In this document: positions 144-37,815 of the stretch, piece by piece | Layout: every line of letters begins with the position of its first letter | Position numbering within the stretch: the first letter of the stretch is position 1 | Source of the DNA: Paraprevotella clara YIT 11840 | GTDB taxonomy: Bacteria; Bacteroidota; Bacteroidia; Bacteroidales; Bacteroidaceae | Reading direction: 5' to 3' | NCBI RefSeq assembly: GCF_000233955.1 | Contig: NZ_JH376578.1 | Coordinates: 1 to 64,000, forward strand | Length of the DNA: 64,000 nucleotides | The notes under the pieces: generated by a model | The model's input: only the letters and a program-made list of their open reading frames with translations | Told to the model about the DNA's origin: nothing | Database searches by the model: none | Position numbers and translations under genes: made by a program

Positions 144-200
144 GTTTCTTGTAGGGTGTCATTCCGGTTCACACCGTCGCATATATACCCGAAACGAATC

Positions 201-6946: not shown

Positions 6947-9547
6947 TTAAATCTCAATCAGGCTGAACGAATAAGCCGGAAGCTCATAGTCGAATTCAGG
7001 TTTCACCTTGATGTCGCTCTCCTTCGGACGGGCATTGCGGTCGTCCCAGTTACCGGTCAACACGTGCAGGCGGGCATCCAGACTCTGCGCCTCGCCGAAA
7101 CGGTCTTTCAGGCTCGACAAGTCCAGCTTCCCTTTCACGGGATGGTTCAGGAGGTTCACCATTTTGATGTACACTTTTCCGGTTTTGGAATCACGTACCG
7201 TACTGACCGCCAGACGCTCGCGTACCCCCTTACGGCCTTCGTTCACCGAAAGCGTGCTTTCGATATACTCGTCGCCGCAATAGTTGCCGCAAAGCTTCTG
7301 CACGTAGTAACCTACCGTGGGCTTCACTTCCTTGTTATTGAAATAAATCATGTCGGGATTCCATTGCGTATGGTGTTCTTTGGCCAACAAAGGAGCATAC
7401 GAGCTCATGGCCACCACATCACCGTTGCGCTCCATGCCGCAAATGTGCAGGGCTTCGCACAAGGCCGTCTCTATGTTGTTGGGACGGCCGGGAGTATGAG
7501 CCGCGTATTCGCCCAAATACACTTTGGAACCGTTACGGTCGTATTGGTCATAATAGTCCTGATGATAAATGAACCAACCGGGCGTCTGATAATAATGCTC
7601 GTCGATCATGTCTATCTTATGGTCTTTAGCCAAACGCCAACCGGTCTCGTAATCACTACCTTCCGACCACGGTCCCGACGTACCGCAAACGACGATGTCA
7701 GGATACTTCTCTTTCACAGCCTTGACAATCATCAGATAACGTTCTTCAAACGTTTTGGAAATCAAGTCTTCGTTGCCGATACCGATATACTTCAGATTAA
7801 ACGGTGCCGGGTGTCCTTGCTCGGCACGGAGTTTACCCCATTTCGTAGTCTTGGCGTCTCCGTTAGCCCACTCAATCAGATCCAACACATCCTGTACGTA
7901 TTTCGGCATTTTGTCCATCGGGATACCTCCCTGTTGTCCGTGTCCGCGGTCGCTCGAATTCTGGCAACTCACACCGGCCGCCAGCACCGGAAGCGGTTCG
8001 CACCCCATGTCCTCGCAGAACTGGAAGTACTCATAGTACCCCAAGCCTTTCGTCTGATGGTAGCCCCACAAGTTGCGTTGGGGTTTGCGGGCTTCCAACG
8101 GACCGATCGTCTCCTTCCAATTATAAATGTTGTGCAAACCGTCACCATGAGCCACACAACCGCCGGGGAAGCGCATGAACTTCGGTTTCAAATCGGCCAA
8201 AGCCTGGGCCAAGTCAGCCCGCAGGCCGTTCTTGCGCCCCTTAAACGTCTGTTGCGGGAAAAGCGAAATCATGTCCAAAGCCACCTTGCCCGTCCCCAAC
8301 GGTTCCACTTTGATGGAAGCATGGTCGGCATCGGCATCGGCTTTCAGCACCGCAGTCATTTTTTTCCAGTCCGACTTGGGAGCTTTAAGGGTAGTCTGTG
8401 CCACCACCCGACCATCCTGCACAAGGCTCACCCGTATCTTTCCGCCTTTGCCCTCCAACTGCTTGGCAAACACCGACAAATCGTATTTCTCACCTTCACG
8501 GACGGGAATACCGTCGAAACCTCCATTCAACAAGGCCACCTGACTAGGCTGTTTCACGTCCACGACGGCATAATTAGGGTTGTTCTCGTGGATAGGCTCG
8601 GATGTCCGTATCTCCCACGTCCCGCCGTCGCCTTCCAACGTCCAGGCAAAATCAGCTTTCCATGCCTTGTTTCCACCCTTGACATCGGCTTGGGAATATT
8701 CAAAATCACGATTCTGCACCAACTCGGCATACAAACCGCCGTCGGCAGCGTAATTGATGTCCTCAAAAAAGATACCGATCAATTTATCGCTGATCTTCTT
8801 CGTCCGGCCCGCATCTATCTTGATTGTGGCTTCAAGAGGCTTCAAGCCTCGGAAACGCACTTCATTGTCCCGCGCCAATTCTCCGTTGAGTGCGGCCCAG
8901 TATGCTGCGCTTTCTACAGCCTGTACCATGCGCTCCACTCCGGCATACGGCACCTTGAATACCTGTCCGTTCACCGGCTGCCCGCCCACAAATGCCTGCT
9001 CCGTCACCGAAGGATAAACGGAAGCATCGACTTTGCGCGGCTTGCTGAAATGATAAAAATCTTTGGAAACGGTTTCGTACACCCCGCCATCCTTGGTCTT
9101 GAACACTACCTTATAAGTAGCCGTTGCCGCGTCGTACGACAACACGGGAGCGATACAACTGTTCACCCCTTCCATATAAGGATAGTCCTGCGGCCGCCAT
9201 TTTACCAAATCGGCACTGTAAGCCACGGCAAACTGATTGGCATAATCGTTCACCTGGAACACGCAACGCCACGTCCCGTCCGGCATCTGTATCAGATTCG
9301 GATGGTACATTTTCTTTTCCGGTCCCCATGTCCCGAAGTCGCTCTTAATGAAAGCATGGCCGGGCCCAATCCCCTTCCACACCTGCCGGTTCGCACTCCA
9401 AGCAAAATTCAACCCACCGCCCGCATGCACATTATAGGCCATGAGATACACCGAATCGGGAACAGCCGCCCCAGCAGAACCGGCCGTCCACAATCCGCAC
9501 CCCAACAAGGCCGCAGAAAGAGCCTTGTTCACGAAATGTTTTTTCAT
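6947..9547 (-). CDS. Alpha-L-arabinofuranosidase (GH51) with N-terminal GH43-like propeller segment
   Basis: 866 aa with a signal peptide ending near AGAA. Residues about 30-235 (DSVYLMAY..., SKDFYHFS) look like part of a five-bladed propeller as found in GH43-type enzymes. From about 240 follows an alpha-L-arabinofuranosidase: GIFFEDINYAADGGLYAELVQNRDFEY, a CBM-like insert, then the TIM barrel with acid/base Glu near 593 (GIGNEDL) and nucleophile Glu near 679 (YLGEYAAH). Typical Bacteroides GH51 enzymes lack the first part, so this is about 200 residues longer. It cleaves terminal alpha-L-arabinofuranosyl residues. It probably shares a transcript with the lipoprotein gene 46 bp upstream. Confidence 0.9.
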   Translation of the reverse strand: MKKHFVNKALSAALLGCGLWTAGSAGAAVPDSVYLMAYNVHAGGGLNFAWSANRQVWKGIGPGHAFIKSDFGTWGPEKKMYHPNLIQMPDGTWRCVFQVNDYANQFAVAYSADLVKWRPQDYPYMEGVNSCIAPVLSYDAATATYKVVFKTKDGGVYETVSKDFYHFSKPRKVDASVYPSVTEQAFVGGQPVNGQVFKVPYAGVERMVQAVESAAYWAALNGELARDNEVRFRGLKPLEATIKIDAGRTKKISDKLIGIFFEDINYAADGGLYAELVQNRDFEYSQADVKGGNKAWKADFAWTLEGDGGTWEIRTSEPIHENNPNYAVVDVKQPSQVALLNGGFDGIPVREGEKYDLSVFAKQLEGKGGKIRVSLVQDGRVVAQTTLKAPKSDWKKMTAVLKADADADHASIKVEPLGTGKVALDMISLFPQQTFKGRKNGLRADLAQALADLKPKFMRFPGGCVAHGDGLHNIYNWKETIGPLEARKPQRNLWGYHQTKGLGYYEYFQFCEDMGCEPLPVLAAGVSCQNSSDRGHGQQGGIPMDKMPKYVQDVLDLIEWANGDAKTTKWGKLRAEQGHPAPFNLKYIGIGNEDLISKTFEERYLMIVKAVKEKYPDIVVCGTSGPWSEGSDYETGWRLAKDHKIDMIDEHYYQTPGWFIYHQDYYDQYDRNGSKVYLGEYAAHTPGRPNNIETALCEALHICGMERNGDVVAMSSYAPLLAKEHHTQWNPDMIYFNNKEVKPTVGYYVQKLCGNYCGDEYIESTLSVNEGRKGVRERLAVSTVRDSKTGKVYIKMVNLLNHPVKGKLDLSSLKDRFGEAQSLDARLHVLTGNWDDRNARPKESDIKVKPEFDYELPAYSFSLIEI

Positions 9548-10847: not shown

Positions 10848-10906
10848 GAAAAGCCGTTCTCCCGACGATGTCGCGTCCCTCTAATTTTGTAATTTTTTAC
10901 GCCTAT

Positions 10907-13663
10907 TTACCACTTCGCAGGACAGCCCGTTGCCTTTACCTTTTTGGTCTTTCCGCCGCACTTGATTTCGCAAGGGCGACTGGCTGTATAATACCATACC
11001 CCGCCTTTCCGTTCCATGGACACGTCTACCGGTTCGGACGAACGTACCTCTATGCCTTCCGAAAGGAACTGCAAGCCATGCCCCAACAGCAAGCGCACAG
11101 GCCTGCCGTCTTTCTCGCGCAGGCAGGCATACGAAGCGCGGGCTTTCATCTTCCCCCATCCGGTTTCTTTGTCGAAAGACGTAGCAGAGAGAATAAAATC
11201 CTTCCGGCCGTCCTTCAGTGTCACTTCGATACCTGCCGCATCGTCCGCCCCCTCCGGCCGGACAAAGTCCACACGGCTGACAGAGTTGCCTTCCGACGAC
11301 ACGGACGGTTCGAACACCGACACGAACGGGCGCGTCCAAGCCTCGCCCGTCTGGCGGGCTACATACGTCAGGGTCGGTTGCCCTTTTATCTTGTAAGGCA
11401 TGCTCCTGTCGCGGCTCAATCCTTCCGTCTCGGGGCTCAACGCACGGAAAATCTTCCGCCCGGGCATGCCCTGTTGCCACATCGTCATGCGGATGTCGTC
11501 GCCCCCGGCATCGGGGCGTACCGTGAAATCCGCACGGATGTCTTTGTCCGTCTGCACCATTTGCTGGTCGTATATATAAGAATAAGCATACAGGTGTGCT
11601 CCGGCGAAACTCAGTTCCTCCGACGGCGCGAAGTCCAACGGACTGCCGTCGGCCGCCGTCACGCTCATCGTCTGCCCCAAATTATGGTAGAAATAATCGT
11701 GCATCTTGTCACCGCCTTCATGCTTCCGGCTTCGGAATATGTCCACATAATAACCGCCGCCGTCCGTATCCACGATGCTCAACAGGCGTGTCTGGTCGGC
11801 CTGCGACTCCGGTTCACGGAAGTATGTCTCGGTATAACAGACTCCCCTGAAGTAATTCTCCGATGCCAAATTCCGTTCTTCGGCCGTAGACGGCTGGGGG
11901 TAACTGTGCAACAATTTGAACGCATGGTTGCTCTTCATCACGGGATAAGAAGAAATGCCGTCCACACAAACCGTATTGTGACTGGGGAACTGGCTGTAAT
12001 ACTCCAGATAGTCCAGACCGGAATACAAGGATTGCCCGATGCCCGCGTCAGGCCCCAACGTCAGGCCCTTCCCATAGAACTCCACCGACAAGCCGTTGGC
12101 ATGCTGATGGTTGCCCTCGCTGCCGTTCAACGAATACATCAGGCTCCGCCCGGCATCCATGCCGTTGCGCTGCACCAGCCAACTGACCTTCGGCACATAA
12201 AAAGTCGGACTGACATACGTTTCTATGTCACCGGCCGCAATCGTCGTGTCTATCGTCAAATCCTCCTGCGGATAGAGGTTCATCAGGTTCCCGCCGCTCC
12301 TGGGACGGTCTTGCGACGCAGCGAAGTCCGGTTCAAAACAACGCAACATGGCCGTGAAGCGTTCCTCCTGCCTCCGCTTGCCATACCGCCGGGCATTCTT
12401 CACCATGCTGCCGAAGTAGCTCGTGCGCAACGGTCCGGGATGCGTGTCCCCGAATCCTACAATCTTACGGTTGGGGAAGCAGTATTGCGGGGTGGCGGCC
12501 ACGGCTTTTTCTATCACCGGGATTTCGCGGGTCAGGTCGCGCCCAAGGTACTTGTCGAACAGCAAGACAAAATCCGTATAATCATTGACCACGTTGCAAC
12601 TGTATCCCGGGCATTCGTTCCAGATTCCCGTTCCTGCATCGAAACCGTAGTCGGCCAAGGTCTTCAGTCCCCACTGCCGCAAGGTGCTGTCCTGCGCCAC
12701 GACATCGAAATAATATTCCCGTCCCTTTCCGTCTTCGTAAGCTTCATTTTCGTCCAACACCAACGCGATGGCAAAGATAAAACGTGCCTGGATGATATTC
12801 CAATTATTATGGGGCACACCGTTACGGACGATCACGTCGGCCATTTTCTTCAGCGCACCGGCATAAACGGGCATGCAGTCCGCATAATGCCGTTCCATAT
12901 AGGTATAAAGGAAGTCGTAGCATTCGGTAAGGAGGGGCACGATGCCTTCATGGATGACTTCAAAAGATGTCATGCCGACCAACGTCTGTTGGTGGCCATG
13001 GTTCAAGTCCCGGGGCAGGTCGCGGTAATAAATCCCCTGCAAATAAGTATCGAGCACTTTTGCCGCCATCCGGCCATACTTCTCTTCTCCCGTCAGCCAC
13101 CACAGGTAGGCCGCATCGCGTGTATGACGCATGATGTCTATGTTGCCGCTCTCTATCTGCGTGCCTACTTTCTCGGGCCTTACCCATTCCAAAGGCTGAC
13201 CCGGCAAATTACGGTTTTTCATGTAAACGCCTTGTGTCTCGTCGGCATACGGCAAACGTTCTTCTATTCCCGGACGGGCGTACGCCGTGGCGGCAGCCCG
13301 TGCACCGCTGAACATGACCGTAGGCACCGGTGCCTTTTCTTCTCCCACATGGCTGAACCATTCACCACGGATATACACGTCCTTGGCCTGTGTTTTCCAA
13401 TTCATATAAAGCCGCGAACTCAAATAGTCTTCCCCACGCTCCGCATACTTGTCCACATTTTGCCTCAAGGCTTCCACGACCTTGCGCGCCCAATCCTGTT
13501 CCTCTATCAGTTTCAAAGTAGCGGACTTCTCCGAAGGAGTCGTTACGACACACGGATGCCCTGCCTCTCTCCCATCCGGGACAGGGGTGGCCGACATTAC
13601 GGCAAATTCCGTCCCGAGGCTCATGGCCACGAACATAAACCAATTTTTTCCCATAAGTTTCAT
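10907..13663 (-). CDS. Heparinase II/III-type polysaccharide lyase
   Basis: 918 aa. The N terminus (MKLMGKNWFMFVAMSLGTEFAVMSA) is a signal peptide; a second ATG four codons in is possible. Residues about 40-430 form an alpha/alpha toroid (RHTRDAAYLWWLTGEEKYGRMAA; DLNHGHQQTLVGM), followed by the heparinase II/III beta-sandwich with GNHQHANGLSVEFYG near 518-530 and FPSHNTVCVDG, where the family's catalytic His is expected. Such lyases cut uronic-acid polysaccharides by beta-elimination; the PL subfamily cannot be assigned here. Its unsaturated products would be substrates for the GH88 enzyme at 2633-3883, and both gene groups carry the same 15-bp upstream element. Confidence 0.85.
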   Translation of the reverse strand: MKLMGKNWFMFVAMSLGTEFAVMSATPVPDGREAGHPCVVTTPSEKSATLKLIEEQDWARKVVEALRQNVDKYAERGEDYLSSRLYMNWKTQAKDVYIRGEWFSHVGEEKAPVPTVMFSGARAAATAYARPGIEERLPYADETQGVYMKNRNLPGQPLEWVRPEKVGTQIESGNIDIMRHTRDAAYLWWLTGEEKYGRMAAKVLDTYLQGIYYRDLPRDLNHGHQQTLVGMTSFEVIHEGIVPLLTECYDFLYTYMERHYADCMPVYAGALKKMADVIVRNGVPHNNWNIIQARFIFAIALVLDENEAYEDGKGREYYFDVVAQDSTLRQWGLKTLADYGFDAGTGIWNECPGYSCNVVNDYTDFVLLFDKYLGRDLTREIPVIEKAVAATPQYCFPNRKIVGFGDTHPGPLRTSYFGSMVKNARRYGKRRQEERFTAMLRCFEPDFAASQDRPRSGGNLMNLYPQEDLTIDTTIAAGDIETYVSPTFYVPKVSWLVQRNGMDAGRSLMYSLNGSEGNHQHANGLSVEFYGKGLTLGPDAGIGQSLYSGLDYLEYYSQFPSHNTVCVDGISSYPVMKSNHAFKLLHSYPQPSTAEERNLASENYFRGVCYTETYFREPESQADQTRLLSIVDTDGGGYYVDIFRSRKHEGGDKMHDYFYHNLGQTMSVTAADGSPLDFAPSEELSFAGAHLYAYSYIYDQQMVQTDKDIRADFTVRPDAGGDDIRMTMWQQGMPGRKIFRALSPETEGLSRDRSMPYKIKGQPTLTYVARQTGEAWTRPFVSVFEPSVSSEGNSVSRVDFVRPEGADDAAGIEVTLKDGRKDFILSATSFDKETGWGKMKARASYACLREKDGRPVRLLLGHGLQFLSEGIEVRSSEPVDVSMERKGGVWYYTASRPCEIKCGGKTKKVKATGCPAKW

Positions 13664-13686
13664 TTATAATATTTGATTCTCATATA

Positions 13687-17326: not shown

Positions 17327-18814
17327 TTACGGGACGATTACTTTTTTCTTATATGTATTACCGTCTTTCGCCGTCAGAGAAACCACATAGATTCCTCGCG
17401 GAAGGACGAAATCTTCAGAAACTTTCAGCCCCTTACGCCGTTCTAACACATATCCTTGCGTATGGTAAACCGAACAATCCCATCCTTCGGCCTGCACCAC
17501 ACGGATATGCCCTTCCGACACCGAGACTTTGATGCCGGACTCTACCCATGAGACACGGGTCGGCACCAATTTATGACACCACAAATACAAGGTGTCCACA
17601 CGTGCACCGTAAGCCAACGCATACAGTTTCCCGTTGGTTTCCGCCTCCATCTTCTGTTCCATCGCGCCTATGGACTGGCCTAAACGGTAAAGCCGTGTCC
17701 CGCTTTCGTCATAGATGTCCATCCGGCAAGGAGCATTCGCTCCCCAGACCAATGAATCACCAGCCTGCGCCGTGACTTCGTAAGCGTAAATCCGGCCTTC
17801 TTCGGGTTGCACGACCATGGCCGAATCACCGTAAACCAAGGAACGGAAATCCAATGCCACCGGAACGTCATAGGCAAACGTGTCGGTACGCGCCTCAGTC
17901 CAACGTCCGGAGGTATCGCCGAAACGCATGCCGAATACCACGTCGTCCGGGCAATAGGCAGTACAAGTTTCCCAATCCACCGTGTAATCCTCCGGGATCT
18001 CATGCGGCACGACACCCTCTACGTCCACCCCAATATCATCCGCCGCAAAAGGATTGGCCGGGGTGACTTCCACCCGTGTGGTTTTTCCGTTGTTGAACCA
18101 ATATTCATAGGCTTCTATACGGTTGTTGGCCAAAGAAGGTTCTGCCTTCACAAAATAACGGGAGAACGGCGCACTCCAACGCCCCGCCTCATCCCGGCTA
18201 CGAAATGACACGCGATGAAGCCCGTAGGACAAATCCGACGTGGAAAGCTCCAGTTCCACCATGCCTCCTTCGGCCGCGCCTTCCACCCGTGCGGCATAAT
18301 CGCCGTCTATCCAGCACTCATAGCTCCGCAGGGTATTGGAAGAATAATCCGGCCCGAGACATACAAAATTACGGGTCATTATCCCTGTCCAACGTCCGGC
18401 TTCGTCGGCAAAGCGGAGCATAAGACGGTGCACGCCCGGCACCAAGCCTGATACGGGAAGCTCCAAATCGAGACGGCCGTCGACCAAAGCGGCCTCCGCC
18501 CATTCGCCACCGTCTATGGCATATTCGCATGTGGCCATGCCGGTGCCGTCATACGCTTTTCCCAAACGGAGGAAATAACGGCAAAACGGACTGCTCCAAC
18601 GCCCCTGCGCATCGCATGCACGGAAGTGAAAACGGTGTATGCCCGGACGTAAATCCGCCACATCTATCTCTATCCCCACGCTTCCTTGTGTCTGCTCCAC
18701 GTACGTACGCTGTGTGTCGTTCCCGTCTGTCCAGTATTCATAACCGGCCATCTGTGCGGCAGCAGAAGCAGGGAAAAGCGAAAGGGCGGGAAGTAACCAA
18801 TGATAGATTTTCAT
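17327..18814 (-). CDS. Secreted repeat protein with C-terminal type IX-like sorting domain
   Basis: 495 aa from the ATG at 18814, chosen because GGAGGT lies 4 nt upstream; an ATG at 18826 is the alternative. Signal peptide MKIYHWLLPALSLFPASAAAQ. Four Ig-like units of about 70-90 residues follow (about 22-90, 92-160, 162-230, 232-330), each beginning with YEYW/CEYAI/YECWI and closing with GRWSSPFCRYF-type strands; the fourth is longer. A linker region is followed by a last domain of about 75 residues (IKVSVSEGHIRVVQAEGWDCSVY to GIYVVSLTAKDGNTYKKKVIVP), which matches the type A sorting signal of type IX secretion. Function unknown; likely cell-surface or secreted adhesin-type protein. Second gene after the beta-helix protein (18-bp gap). 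Confidence 0.75.
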   Translation of the reverse strand: MKIYHWLLPALSLFPASAAAQMAGYEYWTDGNDTQRTYVEQTQGSVGIEIDVADLRPGIHRFHFRACDAQGRWSSPFCRYFLRLGKAYDGTGMATCEYAIDGGEWAEAALVDGRLDLELPVSGLVPGVHRLMLRFADEAGRWTGIMTRNFVCLGPDYSSNTLRSYECWIDGDYAARVEGAAEGGMVELELSTSDLSYGLHRVSFRSRDEAGRWSAPFSRYFVKAEPSLANNRIEAYEYWFNNGKTTRVEVTPANPFAADDIGVDVEGVVPHEIPEDYTVDWETCTAYCPDDVVFGMRFGDTSGRWTEARTDTFAYDVPVALDFRSLVYGDSAMVVQPEEGRIYAYEVTAQAGDSLVWGANAPCRMDIYDESGTRLYRLGQSIGAMEQKMEAETNGKLYALAYGARVDTLYLWCHKLVPTRVSWVESGIKVSVSEGHIRVVQAEGWDCSVYHTQGYVLERRKGLKVSEDFVLPRGIYVVSLTAKDGNTYKKKVIVP

Positions 18815-18818
18815 ACGC

Positions 18819-18824
18819 ACCTCC
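18819..18824 (-). promoter_or_regulatory. Shine-Dalgarno site deciding the start at 18814
   Basis: GGAGGT on the minus strand, 4 nt before the ATG. Such a full site is rare among the genes of this window, most of which lack one. Confidence 0.6.
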
Positions 18825-18832
18825 ATTTCCCG

Positions 18833-19888
18833 TTAGTCTTCGGTTTGCGCCTCTACCGTCATGCTCACTTTCAGCTTGCCGTCGGCGGCCACCGTCGTGT
18901 CGATATGGCTTTCTTTGATTTGGGGTATGGAAGGCGTAGGGTTGTAAGGATAAGGACCACCGTAAAGTCCGACCTGCGTGCCGTCCGTCCCTACGTACTC
19001 TTCGGGATATTTCAGTTTGAATGTTTTCACGCCGTCCCATGCCAGATCGTTCATGCTTTCCTCGAAGATTCCGGCATATTTGCAGTCTACCCAGTTGCCA
19101 GCTCCTATTAGATTATATGGAGTATTATCTATAAAAACACAATTATTAGCCACTACACCACTCGAAATATTAGATGCCTTCACGATACTATTACCTAATG
19201 AAAGCCCAACCAAATTATTTTGATACAAAGAATTTATCAATGAGTGATCAACATTTACGGTACAATACTCTTTAGGAAAATCTATAACCGCGACATAACT
19301 GCCACAAATATAAAAATTTTGATGGTTGCACCAATTACCTGCACCGAATTGCACACCATCACAAACACTTTGCCGTAAAACAAAGTTCTCCGTACTGGAT
19401 TCAAAAAGAAGAGGACGTTCAGAGCCACTTAACTGACATTTCACAATCTGAAAATCCCGAATCACACCTGAGCTTTGAAATAATACATAAGAAAGTTTAA
19501 GACCTTCTAATCGGATTCCATCAACTTTTACACCTTCCTTCACCATTTCACCGTCATCGTCCACTACATCCCGAGGTTTAAAATAAAGACCATCTTCAAT
19601 AATTGTAGGATATATCCCGTTCTCCATGTCTGACACAAAACCATTCCCTACAACAGACAATGATTTTTGAAATTCATGATTAGAAAAAGAAAACACCCCC
19701 GCACTCAACGTAACCACGTCCCCGCTGTCCGCAGCAGCCGTGTAAGCTTCCTCCAAGGCCGTTTTACCGTAATACACACTCACCTCATCCCCGTGTTGAA
19801 GGGTTGCCATGAGGACATCCGTCCCTTGCTGCGCACGTCCCCAAAGAGCCACGCCGCAAGCCATCATCAAGAGAAAAAATTTCTTCAT
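18833..19888 (-). CDS. Secreted right-handed beta-helix protein
   Basis: 351 aa from the ATG at 19888 (MKKFFLLMMACGVALWGRAQQ, signal peptide); a start three codons upstream (19897) is equally possible. Short hydrophobic strands alternate with Asn-rich turns (LSVVGNGFVSDMENG; VDGIRLEGLKLSYVLFQSSGVIRDFQIVKCQL; ANNCVFIDNTPYNLIGAGNW), the pattern of pectate-lyase-like beta-helices without an evident catalytic site. A short C-terminal strand region (ESHIDTTVAADGKLKVSMTVEAQTED) ends the protein. It heads a two-gene transcript with the sorting-tail protein and sits behind a roughly 350-nt structured leader. The A+T content of 19080-19650 is visibly higher than the flanks, hinting at recent acquisition or rapid change of the helix core. 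Confidence 0.7.
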   Translation of the reverse strand: MKKFFLLMMACGVALWGRAQQGTDVLMATLQHGDEVSVYYGKTALEEAYTAAADSGDVVTLSAGVFSFSNHEFQKSLSVVGNGFVSDMENGIYPTIIEDGLYFKPRDVVDDDGEMVKEGVKVDGIRLEGLKLSYVLFQSSGVIRDFQIVKCQLSGSERPLLFESSTENFVLRQSVCDGVQFGAGNWCNHQNFYICGSYVAVIDFPKEYCTVNVDHSLINSLYQNNLVGLSLGNSIVKASNISSGVVANNCVFIDNTPYNLIGAGNWVDCKYAGIFEESMNDLAWDGVKTFKLKYPEEYVGTDGTQVGLYGGPYPYNPTPSIPQIKESHIDTTVAADGKLKVSMTVEAQTED

Positions 19889-19962
19889 ATTCTTCATCTT
19901 TTTTATTGCGTCCGTCAGCCATCCACCGGACTGTTTACAATCATTTTCAAGATTTAAAGAGG

Positions 19963-20131
19963 AGCGTGAGGCTGCTTGCCGGACTGCTTGCCACAATAGC
20001 GGAATCCCCATTCCGGTGAAAACGCAAACAGCCAAACAACAGCCTCACGCTTATGGATATACATGCCCACATCCCCTGACGAAACAGGGAATGCAAGCAC
20101 GGGTATATACATGAAGCGTGAGCATCTGTTG
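19963..20131 (-). promoter_or_regulatory. Structured mRNA leader with mutually exclusive hairpins
   Basis: On the minus strand, segment 2 (20052 to 20037, AAGCGTGAGGCTGTTG) can pair with the earlier segment 1 (20131 to 20114; 9 bp plus 6 bp flanking an internal loop) or with the later segment 3 (19974 to 19963, CAGCCTCACGCT; 12 bp perfect). The loop between 1 and 2 holds a 9-bp hairpin (20093 to 20070) whose one non-Watson-Crick pair is U-G only on the minus-strand RNA. A further 6-bp hairpin lies at 20015-20000. No known riboswitch class was recognised. Confidence 0.6.
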
Positions 20132-20240
20132 TATCACTTTGCGTTCTCATTTAGAATTTGGGGATTTTCTATTGCGACAAAGTAATTTCCAAAAAGACGC
20201 TCTCTTCTATTCTACCATCCCGACACTACGGGACTCGGGA

Positions 20241-20272
20241 CAAAGATAGCGAAAGGTGAGCGCAGAGACAAA
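20241..20272 (-). promoter_or_regulatory. Sigma-ABfr promoter P2 for the beta-helix operon
   Basis: Minus strand TTTG (20269-20272), 20-nt spacer, TATCTTTG (20241-20248): exact consensus. Start expected near 20234, giving a leader of about 346 nt. Confidence 0.75.
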
Positions 20273-21874: not shown

Positions 21875-22966
21875 TCAAGCCTCACGGCAAGCCTTCACAG
21901 TCTCTACCAGACGCTCGAAATCTTCAGGATATACGTCGCCGATGTTCCCGATACGGAAAGTGTCGGCCTGGGAAATCTTGCCCGGATATATCACGAAGCC
22001 CTTCGCTTTCAACTCGGCATAGAAAGCCTTGAAGTCGAAATCCTTCTCAGGATAAAGGAACGAAGTGATAACCGGCGACTGTACGGCTGCCGGCAACAAT
22101 GCCTTGAAGCCGAGCGACTCCATGCCTTTTACCAATACTTCGTGGTTCTTGCAGTAACGGGCATAACGGGCTACCACTCCCCCTTCGGCCTTCAGCTCTT
22201 CCATAGCTTCCTTGAAGGCGCGTACCACGTGGGTAGGCGAGGTGAAACGCCACTTGCCATGCCCTTTTTCCATCGTCTCCCACTGGTCGTAGATGTCGAG
22301 CGACAAAGAACGCGACACGCCCTTGCAAGCCATCAGTTCACTGCGACGGGCGATGATAAAGCCGAAACCGGGTACGCCCTGGATACATTTGTTCGCACTG
22401 CTGATGAGGAAATCGATGCCGAGTTCCTGCACATCCAAAGGCACACCGCCGAAACTGCTCATCGCATCCACAATCAGCTTCTTGCCATGCGCCTTGACCA
22501 CACGGGCCAATTCCGGCAGCGGGTTCAGGATACCCGTAGTCGTCTCGCAGTGTACGAAAGCCACGTGGGTCACATCGCCGTGGCGCGACAGGTTCTTCTC
22601 CACCATTTCGGGGTCTACCTGCATGGTTTCCTCGAAAGCCACCATGTCGTAGGCAATACCGTGGCGGTCGGCAATGACTCCCATGCGGTTGCCGTAAGCA
22701 CCGTTGCTGAAGATAAGCAGTTTGTCACCCTGCTTGAGGGCACTGCCCAACACGGCTTCCACACAATAGGTACCGCTACCCTGCATCAGCACGGAAGTGT
22801 ACTCTTCCGGATGTTTCGTGGCCATCTCCACCAGCGATTTGCGGATTTCTTCCACGATTCCCACATTATAATCTTCATCCCAAGTGCACCAGTCACTCAG
22901 CATGGCTTCTTTTACGGTTTCTGAAGTGGTCAACGGACCGGGCGTCAACAAAAGATAAGGTCTCAT
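21875..22966 (-). CDS. phnW: 2-aminoethylphosphonate-pyruvate transaminase
   Basis: 363 aa. Transfers the amino group of 2-aminoethylphosphonate (AEP) to pyruvate, giving phosphonoacetaldehyde and alanine. Class V aminotransferase fold: start [51 protein letters not shown] and the PLP lysine Lys193 in [12 protein letters not shown]. Length and motifs match PhnW rather than serine-glyoxylate transaminases. It is the last gene of DUF5690-phnX-phnW (17 bp after phnX) and is followed by a terminator. Confidence 0.95.
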
Positions 22967-22983
22967 ATTCTTGTTTTTATAAA

Positions 22984-23775
22984 TTATTGATTCATTTTCT
23001 GATTTATCATCTCGATTATTGCCGGAAGTTCCGTAATGTCGTCCACCACATAGTGGGCACCGGCTTCCAACATGCGGCGGCGCACTTCGGCCTTGCGTGC
23101 GTCCAATTCACCGGCCGGCATGGCTGCGACCTCTTCCTGCGTGAGAGCCAGTTCGTTGCTTCCCATAACCACACCCACGGTCCACACTTTGGCGTTCACG
23201 CCTTCTTTGATGTCGGCTATCGTGTCTCCGTACTTCAACACGCAATCCACCGACGGTACGGCCAAATCTATCATATTCCGGTAGACCATATAAGGATAAG
23301 GACGTCCGGCAGGCAGATGATCCGAAGTCACGCAGTTGTCCACTTTGTAACCGGCTTTTTCCGCAGCCGGAATCACGATGTCCATCATCTTGTCGGTATA
23401 TCCGGTAGTGGAGCCTATCTTGATACCGGCCTTGCGCAATGCCTCTACGGTATCCACCACGCCGGGTATCGGTTCGGAATAATTCTCCAAGGTGTCAAAC
23501 AACACGCGCTGAAAAGCCACGTAACGGGCCTGCACGTCCTCATCGGTGTAGTCGCGACCGAACTTCTCGCGGAAAGCAGCCTTGACCCGGTCGATGTTGA
23601 ACAGGGCACGGATTTCCTCAATCTTAGTCAGCCCCATGTAAGCACGGGTCTCTGCAGCCGTCACCGGCACGCCGATCTCGTTGAAACTCTCGATGAAAGC
23701 CGCCACGGGGGCAAAGCAACCGTAATCCACAGCCGTACCGGCCCAATCTAAAATGATGCACTCAATTTTTTTCAT
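22984..23775 (-). CDS. phnX: Phosphonoacetaldehyde hydrolase
   Basis: 263 aa, HAD superfamily. Splits the C-P bond of phosphonoacetaldehyde into acetaldehyde and phosphate. Nucleophile Asp10 ([13 protein letters not shown]), the Schiff-base lysine Lys51 ([13 protein letters not shown]; Lys53 in Bacillus cereus PhnX), the Thr of GSTTGYT and the acidic loop [12 protein letters not shown] are all present. It lies between the transporter-like gene (23-bp gap) and phnW, so the three are one operon for using AEP as a source of phosphate and nitrogen. Confidence 0.95.
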
Positions 23776-23798
23776 GTTTCTATGTTTGAACTAATGGT

Positions 23799-25175
23799 TT
23801 ATCTGTTTTTAATCACTTCCGGGGAAAGGGCATACTCCTCGCCCTCGCAAGGGAACGGCGCAGAGGGAGTATAGACGAAATTCTTCGGGCCACGGTGGCG
23901 TTCCCGGCGGTAACGCCATACGATGTAAGCCGCAGAGCAGGCAAAAGACACACTGCAAATGATGCCCACATAACTGCACGCAAAGTTATAAAATTGCAAC
24001 CAGTTGACATCGGGATTGAAACATTCCTTGAACACCAGAACCAACACCGTACCCATGTAACCGATGAAATCCAGCGTGATAATGAAGAAGCCCACGTTGC
24101 CTTTTATCCTGAAACAAGCGATGAAACGCTCGAAGAAAAGAGTCTGGAAACTCAAATAGACGGTATAGAGGCACAGGCTCTGCAAGAAAAGCCAAAGCGT
24201 GACGGGCAAATTCCAAGCCTCGTAATTGAAGGCCACACTGCTCAACACGGCACAGCCGCAAGTAACCAAGGCCAACAAAAGACAGAGCACCTTGACGTTG
24301 CTCTTCACCATCGACATGGCTGCGAACAGTATGAGGATCACCAAAGTGACCGTAGCGTCGATCTTGGCAAAAGCCCATGAAGACAAACCGGCCGCCTTTA
24401 CGTCGATGATTTTCACGAGGAAGTCTTCTTTAAGGTCTTGCAACACGGTAATGAACAGGTTGGCAAAGAAGAGTATCAGCAACACGGGCATGAAGCTCTT
24501 GAATACGGCCGAACGTCCCTTGCGGTCGAGAGCCACACGCTCCGTACGCAATTCCATGTCGGCCTTCGTAGGATGCGGAAGCCGGGTCATCGCCCATCCC
24601 AACAAAGAAAGCAACGGGAAAGCAAACGCACCGATGAACGCGGGCATCCAGAATTCGCTGACATGAAGCCCGTTCATCACGAAAAGCCCCAACGACTTGG
24701 CCGTACCGGAACTGATGGCGATACTCAAACCCATCAGACTGGCCAATAAATCCGTCACCCGCCGGCCTTCTAAGAAACTGAATATCACACCCCACATGCA
24801 ACCCAACGACAGCCCGTTGAAGAACAAGGCAAAGACATTATAAGGACGGGGCAACGCTCCGAACAACACCAAAGACAATTCGGCCACAGCCACAGAGGCG
24901 ATAATGAACTTCAGCCGGTTCTCTTTTTTCATCTCCGAAATCACCTTGATACCGATGAGTTTGGAGAGGAAATAACCCGCAATCTGCACGATGCTCGTGG
25001 CCGTCTTATAGTCCATTCCGAAAAAATCAAGCCCGTCGAACGTGGCTGCCGTGAAAGGCTTGCGAAGTGCATATACCAATGAATAAGACAACAAAGCCGC
25101 ACCGCCGGCCCACAAGATGAACAATACGTCCGAGAGTGCCTTTTTCTGATTTGCCTTCAATTCCATAATCTCCAT
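23799..25175 (-). CDS. DUF5690/MFS-like membrane protein, candidate AEP transporter
   Basis: 458 aa with about 12 transmembrane helices. The N-terminal third resembles the major facilitator fold (YALRKPFTAATFDGLDFFGMDYKTATSIVQIAGYFLSKLIG, the KPF/Y and SK words of organophosphate transporters; GLSLGCMWGVIFSFLEGRR); the rest is typical of the Bacteroidetes DUF5690 group. Start at 25175 or the ATG at 25166. It is the first gene of the AEP operon, so import of AEP or a related phosphonate is the simplest role, replacing the ABC system PhnSTUV used elsewhere. This is inference; the substrate is not shown by sequence. Confidence 0.75.
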   Translation of the reverse strand: MEIMELKANQKKALSDVLFILWAGGAALLSYSLVYALRKPFTAATFDGLDFFGMDYKTATSIVQIAGYFLSKLIGIKVISEMKKENRLKFIIASVAVAELSLVLFGALPRPYNVFALFFNGLSLGCMWGVIFSFLEGRRVTDLLASLMGLSIAISSGTAKSLGLFVMNGLHVSEFWMPAFIGAFAFPLLSLLGWAMTRLPHPTKADMELRTERVALDRKGRSAVFKSFMPVLLILFFANLFITVLQDLKEDFLVKIIDVKAAGLSSWAFAKIDATVTLVILILFAAMSMVKSNVKVLCLLLALVTCGCAVLSSVAFNYEAWNLPVTLWLFLQSLCLYTVYLSFQTLFFERFIACFRIKGNVGFFIITLDFIGYMGTVLVLVFKECFNPDVNWLQFYNFACSYVGIICSVSFACSAAYIVWRYRRERHRGPKNFVYTPSAPFPCEGEEYALSPEVIKNR

Positions 25176-37624: not shown

Positions 37625-37808
37625 GAAAAGGGAGCCGCATCGGTTAGATTGGGATACTCATCAATTTATTTCAGAAAACCGAGAATGCTTCGCTCACTAA
37701 TGGCGGGCCACGCCTTCGGGTAGCTTAATTGCCGGTGGATTACAAAGGTGACGGGCGCTCAAATCTTGTTAGCTCGGAGTTTTCATCACATCATCGGTGC
37801 GGCTTTTA
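37625..37808 (+). ncRNA. Structured non-coding RNA, possibly 6S RNA
   Basis: About 184 nt with no reading frame. The ends pair over 11 bp (37633-37643 with 37794-37804, two G-U pairs). After an asymmetric bubble (30 nt on the 5' side, 9 nt on the 3' side) a second helix forms: GAAAA and CCGAG (37674-37683) with CTCGG and TTTTC (37773-37784). An apical domain with CCTTCGGG-type pairing fills the rest. Dedicated promoter, length, rod shape and open central bubble are what 6S RNA (the RNA polymerase decoy) shows. The hallmarks of SRP RNA, tmRNA and RNase P RNA were not found. That it is an RNA gene is fairly sure; 6S identity is a guess. Confidence 0.6.
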
Positions 37809-37815
37809 CCATAAA

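Follow-up and report, generated by a model that had tools for sequence, protein, structure and literature searches.

The question raised by this locus is what kind of device, if any, is formed by a long and strongly folded RNA leader in front of a gene of Paraprevotella clara YIT 11840. We define "the window" as the whole 64,000-nucleotide stretch of DNA that was analysed. The leader lies on the minus strand at 20248-19888, from a promoter to a start codon at 19897 or 19888. Its promoter -7 element, TATCTTTG (TAnnTTTG; 20241-20248, minus strand), was identified from the sequence and is conserved in the family described below. An earlier sequence-only reading had put the length of the leader at about 346 nt; about 340 nt would fit if transcription starts a few bases past TATCTTTG. 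The folding energy of the 352-nt leader is -143.8 kcal/mol, versus -96.4 ± 5.2 for shuffled sequences (z = -9.15), and none of 100 shuffles equalled it.

The gene that follows (18833-19897, minus strand, from the ORF list) has a signal-peptide-like start. It had no Pfam match at E ≤ 0.1, and the proposal that it encodes a beta-helix protein was not confirmed. The second gene of the putative operon (17327-18826, minus strand) has a weak, sub-threshold match to a T9SS sorting tail (Por_Secre_tail, E = 0.031). Elsewhere in the window, the minus-strand genes at 21875-25175 are what we take to be a 2-aminoethylphosphonate degradation set (transaminase-like, phosphonatase-like hydrolase and transporter), and two almost fully overlapping ORFs of 933 and 918 amino acids occupy opposite strands at 10868-13669, where the minus-strand ORF looks real.

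The leader can adopt two alternative folds. Fold I is one long hairpin composed of the helices A2':D2', arm5:K loop, B2':C2', B:C and A:D. Fold II consists of two hairpins, the first formed by A:B and A2:B2 and the second by C:D and C2:D2, which leaves arm5 and the K loop available for a kissing interaction. The folds are mutually exclusive because segment C is wanted by both B and D. Read from 5' to 3', the order is promoter, H0, A, A2, arm5, B2, B, H3, C, C2, the K hairpin (arm3), D2, D, a U-run, H5 with segment E in its loop, and the start codon.

All of these features are on the minus strand. H0 (20217-20234), a short hairpin near the expected 5' end of the transcript, was found by folding and has counterparts in both copies of a related genome, G005, and by eye in other members. 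It is followed by segments A (AGAGCGTCT; 20195-20203), A2 (20174-20188) and A2' (20168-20176), by arm5 (AAATCCCCAAATTCTA; 20152-20167; z = -11.7), which pairs with the K loop either in the long helix of fold I or possibly as a kissing loop in fold II, and by B2' and B2 (20131-20151, placed by a sliding map). Segment B (AGATGCTCACGCTT; 20114-20127) is the upstream copy of the pairing sequence, segment C (AAGCGTGAGGCTGTTGTTTG, with GCGUGGG; 20033-20052, sliding map) the contested central copy, and segment D (CAAGCAGCCTCACGCT; 19963-19978) the downstream copy, which forms the 3' strand of a terminator-like stem and has A and E as alternative partners. Between B and C is H3 (20051-20116), a variable upper hairpin with a TGTATAT/TATAT-type stem that is almost missing from short members such as L103 and L104. 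C2 and C2' (20016-20033, sliding map) precede the K hairpin (CCGGAATGGGGATTCCG; 20000-20016), which was found by folding and has a loop complementary to arm5, and D2' and D2 (19980-20001) lie between K and D. After D comes a U-rich tract (TCCTCTTTAA; 19954-19963), recognised by its T count, which is interrupted in the window and more regular in many members. H5 (19910-19931, -9.4 kcal/mol) is a hairpin ahead of the start codon whose loop contains segment E (GGCTG, 19920-19916), which can pair with the 5' half of D (duplex energy -10.6 kcal/mol).

The three pairing copies are located where the sequence-only reading had put them (upstream 20131-20114, central 20052-20037, downstream 19974-19963), and the U-G pair of the nested hairpin at 20093-20070 is indeed used on the minus strand, as judged from sequence and fold. 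The pairings themselves are more extensive than had been described. The 12-bp downstream pairing exists as the foot of a 27-bp stem with an inner 6-bp hairpin (20054-19963, -52.3 kcal/mol), which is the second hairpin of fold II and ends like an intrinsic terminator, and the upstream pairing of 9 plus 6 bp is part of a hairpin of about 180 nt. The near-repeats of CATGTATAT are present as sequence, but the suggestion that they mark a ligand or protein site did not hold: they form the two strands of the H3 stem, and therefore provide no evidence of a ligand site.

In the window, the long hairpin over 20207-19963 has an energy of -114.8 kcal/mol, versus a sum of -101.8 kcal/mol for the separate hairpins with loop-loop pairing uncounted; the arm5:K duplex alone contributes -14.4 kcal/mol. 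The two folds are near in energy across the family (means of -84.3 versus -70.1 kcal/mol, kissing uncounted). On geometric grounds, a loop-loop helix of about 26 bp would be incompatible with both stems being closed.

The family was difficult to detect by sequence similarity. A BLAST search of the P. clara genome with the leader returned only the leader itself below E = 0.1, together with 15 weaker, short matches up to E = 10. When 18 genomes of the genus were searched, strong relatives (below E = 1 × 10-6) numbered two, both in G005; the same two were recovered in a search of 61 genomes, where every other match was short and weak. These two relatives first suggested a rare element, an idea that was overturned by matches to RNA models. 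Model R1, a covariance model of three sequences (the window copy and the two G005 copies) built on fold I, matched 38 of the 399 sampled family genomes. Because R1 also gave a score to the palindrome's antisense strand (52.7 bits), its matches were accepted only once the sequences had been read (17 loci and the flanks of members) and aligned (31 members). Inspected by eye, the 17 loci have the segment order and motifs of the window copy. Model R2 was made from 28 members on a weak RNAalifold consensus of nine C:D pairs over 240 positions, and acted mainly as a sequence profile.

With R2, and with the best five candidates per genome scored, 337 of the 399 family genomes match at E ≤ 0.001, including 177 of 207 good-quality genomes and 25 of 30 genera. 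More than one match was obtained in 280 of the 337, a row count that may include antisense echoes. The P. clara genome itself contains 14 forward copies at E ≤ 3.6 × 10-6, plus one antisense echo and one partial copy at higher E, among the best 150 of 617 candidates. For the genus to which G415 belongs, matches at E ≤ 1 × 10-5 were obtained in 99 of 119 genomes, with up to 17 matches among the best 17 candidates scored. A phylum-wide sample yielded matches in 16 of 345 genomes at E ≤ 1 × 10-6, the window's own genome counted in; by eye, eleven of these loci have the same layout in a shorter form. An exact two-part pattern of 25 bases occurs in at least 119 stretches of GTDB genomes, and among the matches listed, the 80 pattern loci all belong by name to Bacteroidales groups or Bacteroidia, apart from one MAG labelled Clostridia. 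Named hosts among the matches listed include Bacteroides finegoldii, Parabacteroides distasonis, Coprobacter secundus, Butyricimonas synergistica and Dysgonomonas, and one IMG/VR contig matches the 25-base pattern. The leader is one copy of a large RNA family that is widespread in Bacteroidales and sparse in other Bacteroidota.

Both folds left a record of covariation in this family. We compared the pairing energies of segments from the same RNA with those obtained after segments had been exchanged at random among the RNAs. For the larger set, of 101 forward rows in 59 clusters, the z scores for fold II are -7.0 for A:B, -12.1 for A2:B2, -10.3 for C:D and -10.7 for C2:D2, and those for fold I are -6.2 for B:C, -15.2 for B2:C2 and -19.4 for A2:D2, while nine control pairings ranged from +1.3 to -2.5. 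H3 scored -10.4, and arm5:arm3 -11.0 for a helix under-sampled for variation, since 78 of the 100 loci scanned for this set came from an exact pattern that holds arm5 and the K loop. Two pairings were weak, A:D (z = -2.7) and the K stem (z = -2.5), the latter equal to the poorest of the controls. The scores in the first set, of 28 members in 19 clusters, were A2:B2 -7.6, C2:D2 -6.8, C:D -6.7 and A:B -3.5 for fold II; B:C -5.0, B2:C2 -4.9, A2:D2 -4.3 and A:D -0.5 for fold I; arm5:arm3 -10.4 and H3 -4.4; and 1.5 to -1.7 for six control pairings.

Each helix was located by the sliding map, and helices of both folds were recovered by a de novo scan of alignment columns, among them A2':D2' (sliding windows with z of -11 to -24) and the K stem (181-187:192-198). 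Segment C scores with both of its partners: in the map, its window 145-153 has a z of -8.1 with the D side and -4.5 with the B side. The B, C and D columns are all pair-compatible in 93 of 101 rows. An independent counting tool found 85.5% of cells paired for fold II and 85.6% for fold I, with covariation scores of 0.308 and 0.360, versus 0.204 and 0.193 after shuffling and at most 0.107 for slid controls. Across its five measures, the shuffle reached only the number of pair types of fold I (1 of 500).

The signal is less clear where the same nucleotides are asked to serve both folds. A four-column ring test of the nucleotides shared by A2, B2, C2 and D2 was weak (63 of 94, versus a shuffled mean of 56.8 and maximum of 64), which indicates that the covariation of the lower stems comes largely from neighbouring rather than shared nucleotides, and that the case for exclusivity depends chiefly on C, A and D, the strands that are shared. 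RNAalifold, applied to the 28-sequence alignment, kept only the nine C:D pairs.

The way in which members were collected bears on these numbers. R1 members were found through fold I, and the alignment leans towards C:D because R2 contains it; A:B, A2:B2, C2:D2, A2':D2' and D:E are in neither model. Seven of the 108 rows were antisense echoes; they were dropped from the covariation, sliding-map, promoter and U-run, de novo and ring tests and were kept in the counting-tool test. The first set omitted L045, L047, L052 and L060 as near-duplicates, along with R1 matches that had no locus, and the 100-locus scan omitted L196-L197. The sequence-only reading had proposed two exclusive long stems, and both sets of pairings are kept in homologues by compensatory changes. 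Conservation of the bases without the pairings would have counted against it; the opposite was found.

We suggest, with a probability of roughly 0.7, that the leader belongs to a family of cis-acting, bistable transcription attenuators, in which fold II would correspond to termination and fold I plus D:E to read-through. In this model, A and A2 of the nascent RNA would pair with B2 and B to form hairpin 1, and C and C2 with D2 and D to form hairpin 2, which together with the U-run would stop RNA polymerase. In this off state arm5 and K could bring the loops of the two hairpins into a kissing contact. In the alternative state, C would be captured by B, and the hairpins would merge into a single long hairpin (arm5:arm3, A2':D2' and B2':C2'), freeing D for A or for the downstream segment E, so that no terminator forms and the downstream gene, often one for a surface protein, is transcribed. 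Hairpin 1 would presumably be made first, favouring termination by default, and the capture of C by B would need help. The signal that sets the balance could be a metabolite, a NusG-type factor or a protein that binds RNA, each of which would fit. The layout of attenuators and riboswitches had already been noted in the sequence-only reading, and the conserved exclusive stems, one of them terminator-like with a U-run, would favour an attenuator.

The promoter has a consistent place in the family. Of 58 members, 54 have the motif TAnnTTTG in the 130 nt ahead of A, versus 19 of 277 background windows. This observation bears on the proposal that the locus is a DNA element (an invertible promoter, MITE or palindromic repeat) with no RNA function, which its inverted repeats and the recombinase-like genes upstream of some copies might recommend, but which we consider hardly credible. 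The promoter precedes the repeats, the pairings include G-U pairs, a U-run and co-directional genes follow, and the copies within the P. clara genome are too diverged for BLAST yet are found by an RNA model. Two specific forms were rejected. An invertible promoter should lie between the repeats, and TAnnTTTG lies ahead of segment A (at 20248-20241 in the window), although the interval between the repeats was scanned in only some members. A MITE or recent mobile repeat should leave near-identical dispersed copies, and these are absent from the BLAST search of the P. clara genome.

Attenuation of a downstream gene, the reading that we prefer, predicts that the RNA is positioned as a leader. In 73 of 80 loci the first ORF after the RNA runs in the same direction (four opposite, three none), and it starts within 110 nt of the approximate end of the RNA in 56 of the 73 and farther away in 17. 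A second set, which shares some of these loci, has a co-directional ORF in 47 of 53; there the window itself (L084) was scored as opposite only because the script preferred an antisense ORF to the true gene. The orientation of the upstream neighbour varies: it is the same in 46 of the 80 loci and opposite in 24, with no neighbour in 10, and it is the same in 33 and opposite in 17 of the second set. The U-run is also a family feature, with a mean of 5.42 T in the 8 nt after D, versus 2.39 in the background (59 members). Position, promoter, and two mutually exclusive conserved structures of which one is a terminator-like stem with a U-run are all what is expected of an attenuator; the points against it include the interrupted U-tract of the window (TCCTCTTTAA), the 7 of 80 and 6 of 53 loci without a co-directional downstream ORF, the 17 ORFs that start farther away, the weak covariation of A:D and of the K stem, the weak ring test, and the z of -2.4 for a reversed control of D:E.

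A promoter and a U-run of its own would equally suit an independent small RNA with an intrinsic terminator, for which the downstream gene is a bystander. We regard this as unlikely, given the co-directional ORFs and their proximity, the D:E complementarity, which sits past the U-run, and the occurrence of tandem copies, 93-101 nt apart (L178, 4475-5007; L152, 370-901; L135, 6463-7024). Terminated leaders could also act in trans, so that the two readings are not exclusive.

The complementarity between D and the sequence beyond the U-run is conserved: across 59 members, pairing between the 5' half of D and a segment located 12-75 nt downstream has a z of -9.9, versus -2.4 for a reversed control. 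In the attenuator model this pairing would help to keep D out of the terminator. The same conservation, and the position of H5 and E (19931-19910) just ahead of the ATG at 19897, would also be expected of a translational or mRNA-stability switch in which H5/E and the alternative folds govern decay or the access of ribosomes, and the U-run has no role of its own. The strong stem-plus-U-run layout across the family argues against this, and we give such a switch little chance of being the correct description.

If the leaders are attenuators, the genes that follow them might indicate the signal. Using simple scripts rather than trained predictors for gene calling and signal peptides, we found signal-peptide-like starts in 35 of 73 downstream proteins versus 11 of 62 upstream neighbours, the 8 of 70 upstream proteins that lack an initial M having been left out. 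A Pfam scan of 64 of the 73 downstream proteins (nine that were short, distant or cut were left out) identified 11 BspA-type leucine-rich repeat proteins (LRR_5), 3 dynamin-like GTPases and 2 with a T9SS tail, and the rest were scattered; no common theme for a trigger emerged beyond LRR_5 in 11 of 64. In the P. clara genome, with L108, L113 and L115 left out, ten downstream proteins were scanned: carboxypeptidase-regulatory-like, FG-GAP (two), T9SS-tail, WG-repeat, BspA-LRR and NusG/KOW (one) domains were found, and three proteins had no match. Homologous leaders do precede other secreted repeat proteins, a point that the sequence-only reading had proposed to check, but the downstream genes are too varied to indicate a ligand. 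That the whole family senses one common signal, either a metabolite or an RNA-binding protein, and thereby sets the surface proteome, with kissing hairpins terminating and the merged hairpin reading through, in a large overlooked class with more than 10 copies in some genomes, is a tentative proposal that we think could be right but would not bet on.

Several neighbourhoods contain features worth recording. The NusG/KOW-domain gene follows one P. clara copy (L109, 735-1508, minus strand) and may be a candidate antitermination factor under the control of a family member. Similar small helix-turn-helix-like proteins of about 70-115 amino acids, alike by eye, follow the RNA in L111, L115, L123, L130 and L190; the one in L111 had no Pfam match. 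Serine-recombinase-like genes, named by eye, lie directly upstream of the RNA in L144, L151 and L166 (Bacteroidales). A near-perfect palindrome (CTCAAGCGATTCACATTTTTT...) is shared by the two G005 loci and lies near the RNA in each (L040, about 9092-9146; L039, about 566-620). One of these RNA copies adjoins genes that by eye resemble the HD-domain and large outer-membrane-type genes of the window, but about 840 nt devoid of genes come after it. The second lies ahead of a similar signal-peptide start and reaches the contig end, where (L039, 1-110) the signal-peptide start is joined to an unrelated coiled-coil-like coding sequence, either a misassembly or a real fusion.

The sequence-only reading recognised no known class of RNA in the leader, and searches with Rfam 15 (4227 families) agree. 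At gathering thresholds the leader matched no family when the whole window was searched, and 20 member loci yielded only a tRNA that lies away from the RNA. With E values up to 10, the leader matched six unrelated families, far below their gathering scores. The parts of the literature covered by our search contain no description of the family. Members may be included among unassigned structures, namely the 64 structured 5' regions reported in Flavobacterium psychrophilum, some of them conserved and lacking Rfam hits (PMC9723704), and the Bacteroidetes motifs that a 2010 survey lists with no Rfam number (PMC2864571). A 2020 B. thetaiotaomicron transcriptome paper notes long 5' UTRs and assigns riboswitches by homology (PMC7366714).

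Most of the genomes sampled from this bacterial family carry the structured leader, placed before adhesin-like and lipoprotein genes among others, and if the attenuator model is correct it would represent a major unrecognised layer of surface-protein control in gut bacteria. Some of the long 5' UTRs described for Bacteroides could be explained in this way, and identification of the trigger would open a regulon. The leader is in addition a natural system for studying how an RNA exchanges two hairpins for one, with both states visible by covariation.

The trp-type attenuators have a 1:2 / 2:3 / 3:4 layout. Like them, the leaders described here have four ordered segments in which neighbours are complementary, the last pair and the U-run being terminator-like and the middle pair the alternative. 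Unlike them, the family has far longer stems, two hairpins that carry complementary loops and can merge, an extra segment E that competes for D, and no leader peptide conserved in the three copies aligned; a 67-aa ORF in the window (20150-19947), considered as a trp-type leader peptide, was rejected as it is frame-shifted by an indel in L040 (G005). Transcriptional riboswitches include kissing-loop and tandem types. The leaders resemble these in being structured, in having an alternative terminator-like stem and loop-loop complementarity, and in some tandem copies, but they match no Rfam family and precede diverse genes rather than a ligand-related set.

Leaders of Bacteroides capsule operons under UpxY/NusG control are described as sites of premature termination in the untranslated region of surface loci (PMC12118408), and one P. 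clara copy precedes a NusG-domain gene; that system, however, belongs to capsule operons and works with a cognate factor, whereas the family precedes many unrelated genes. FopS/GibS and a second RbpB-bound sRNA family of B. thetaiotaomicron are likewise multicopy RNAs with their own promoters. FopS is set apart in that it is described as consisting of a 5' stretch that is single-stranded and a terminator hairpin (PMC11697453). The second family is reported there to have six paralogous members adjoining transposases or invertases (PMC11697453), namely BTnc020, BTnc054, BTnc075, BTnc172, BTnc213 and BTnc266; some copies of the leader have serine-recombinase-like genes upstream, and a possible link to an RbpB-type protein is only a lead. 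Bacteroidales-1 RNA (RF01693), for which a 6S-like role has been suggested, is another structured Bacteroidales RNA and is present in the window (37633-37810, plus strand, 160 bits), but the leader does not match its model. An attenuator is a known kind of device; the RNA family and its two-hairpins-to-one layout appear to be new.
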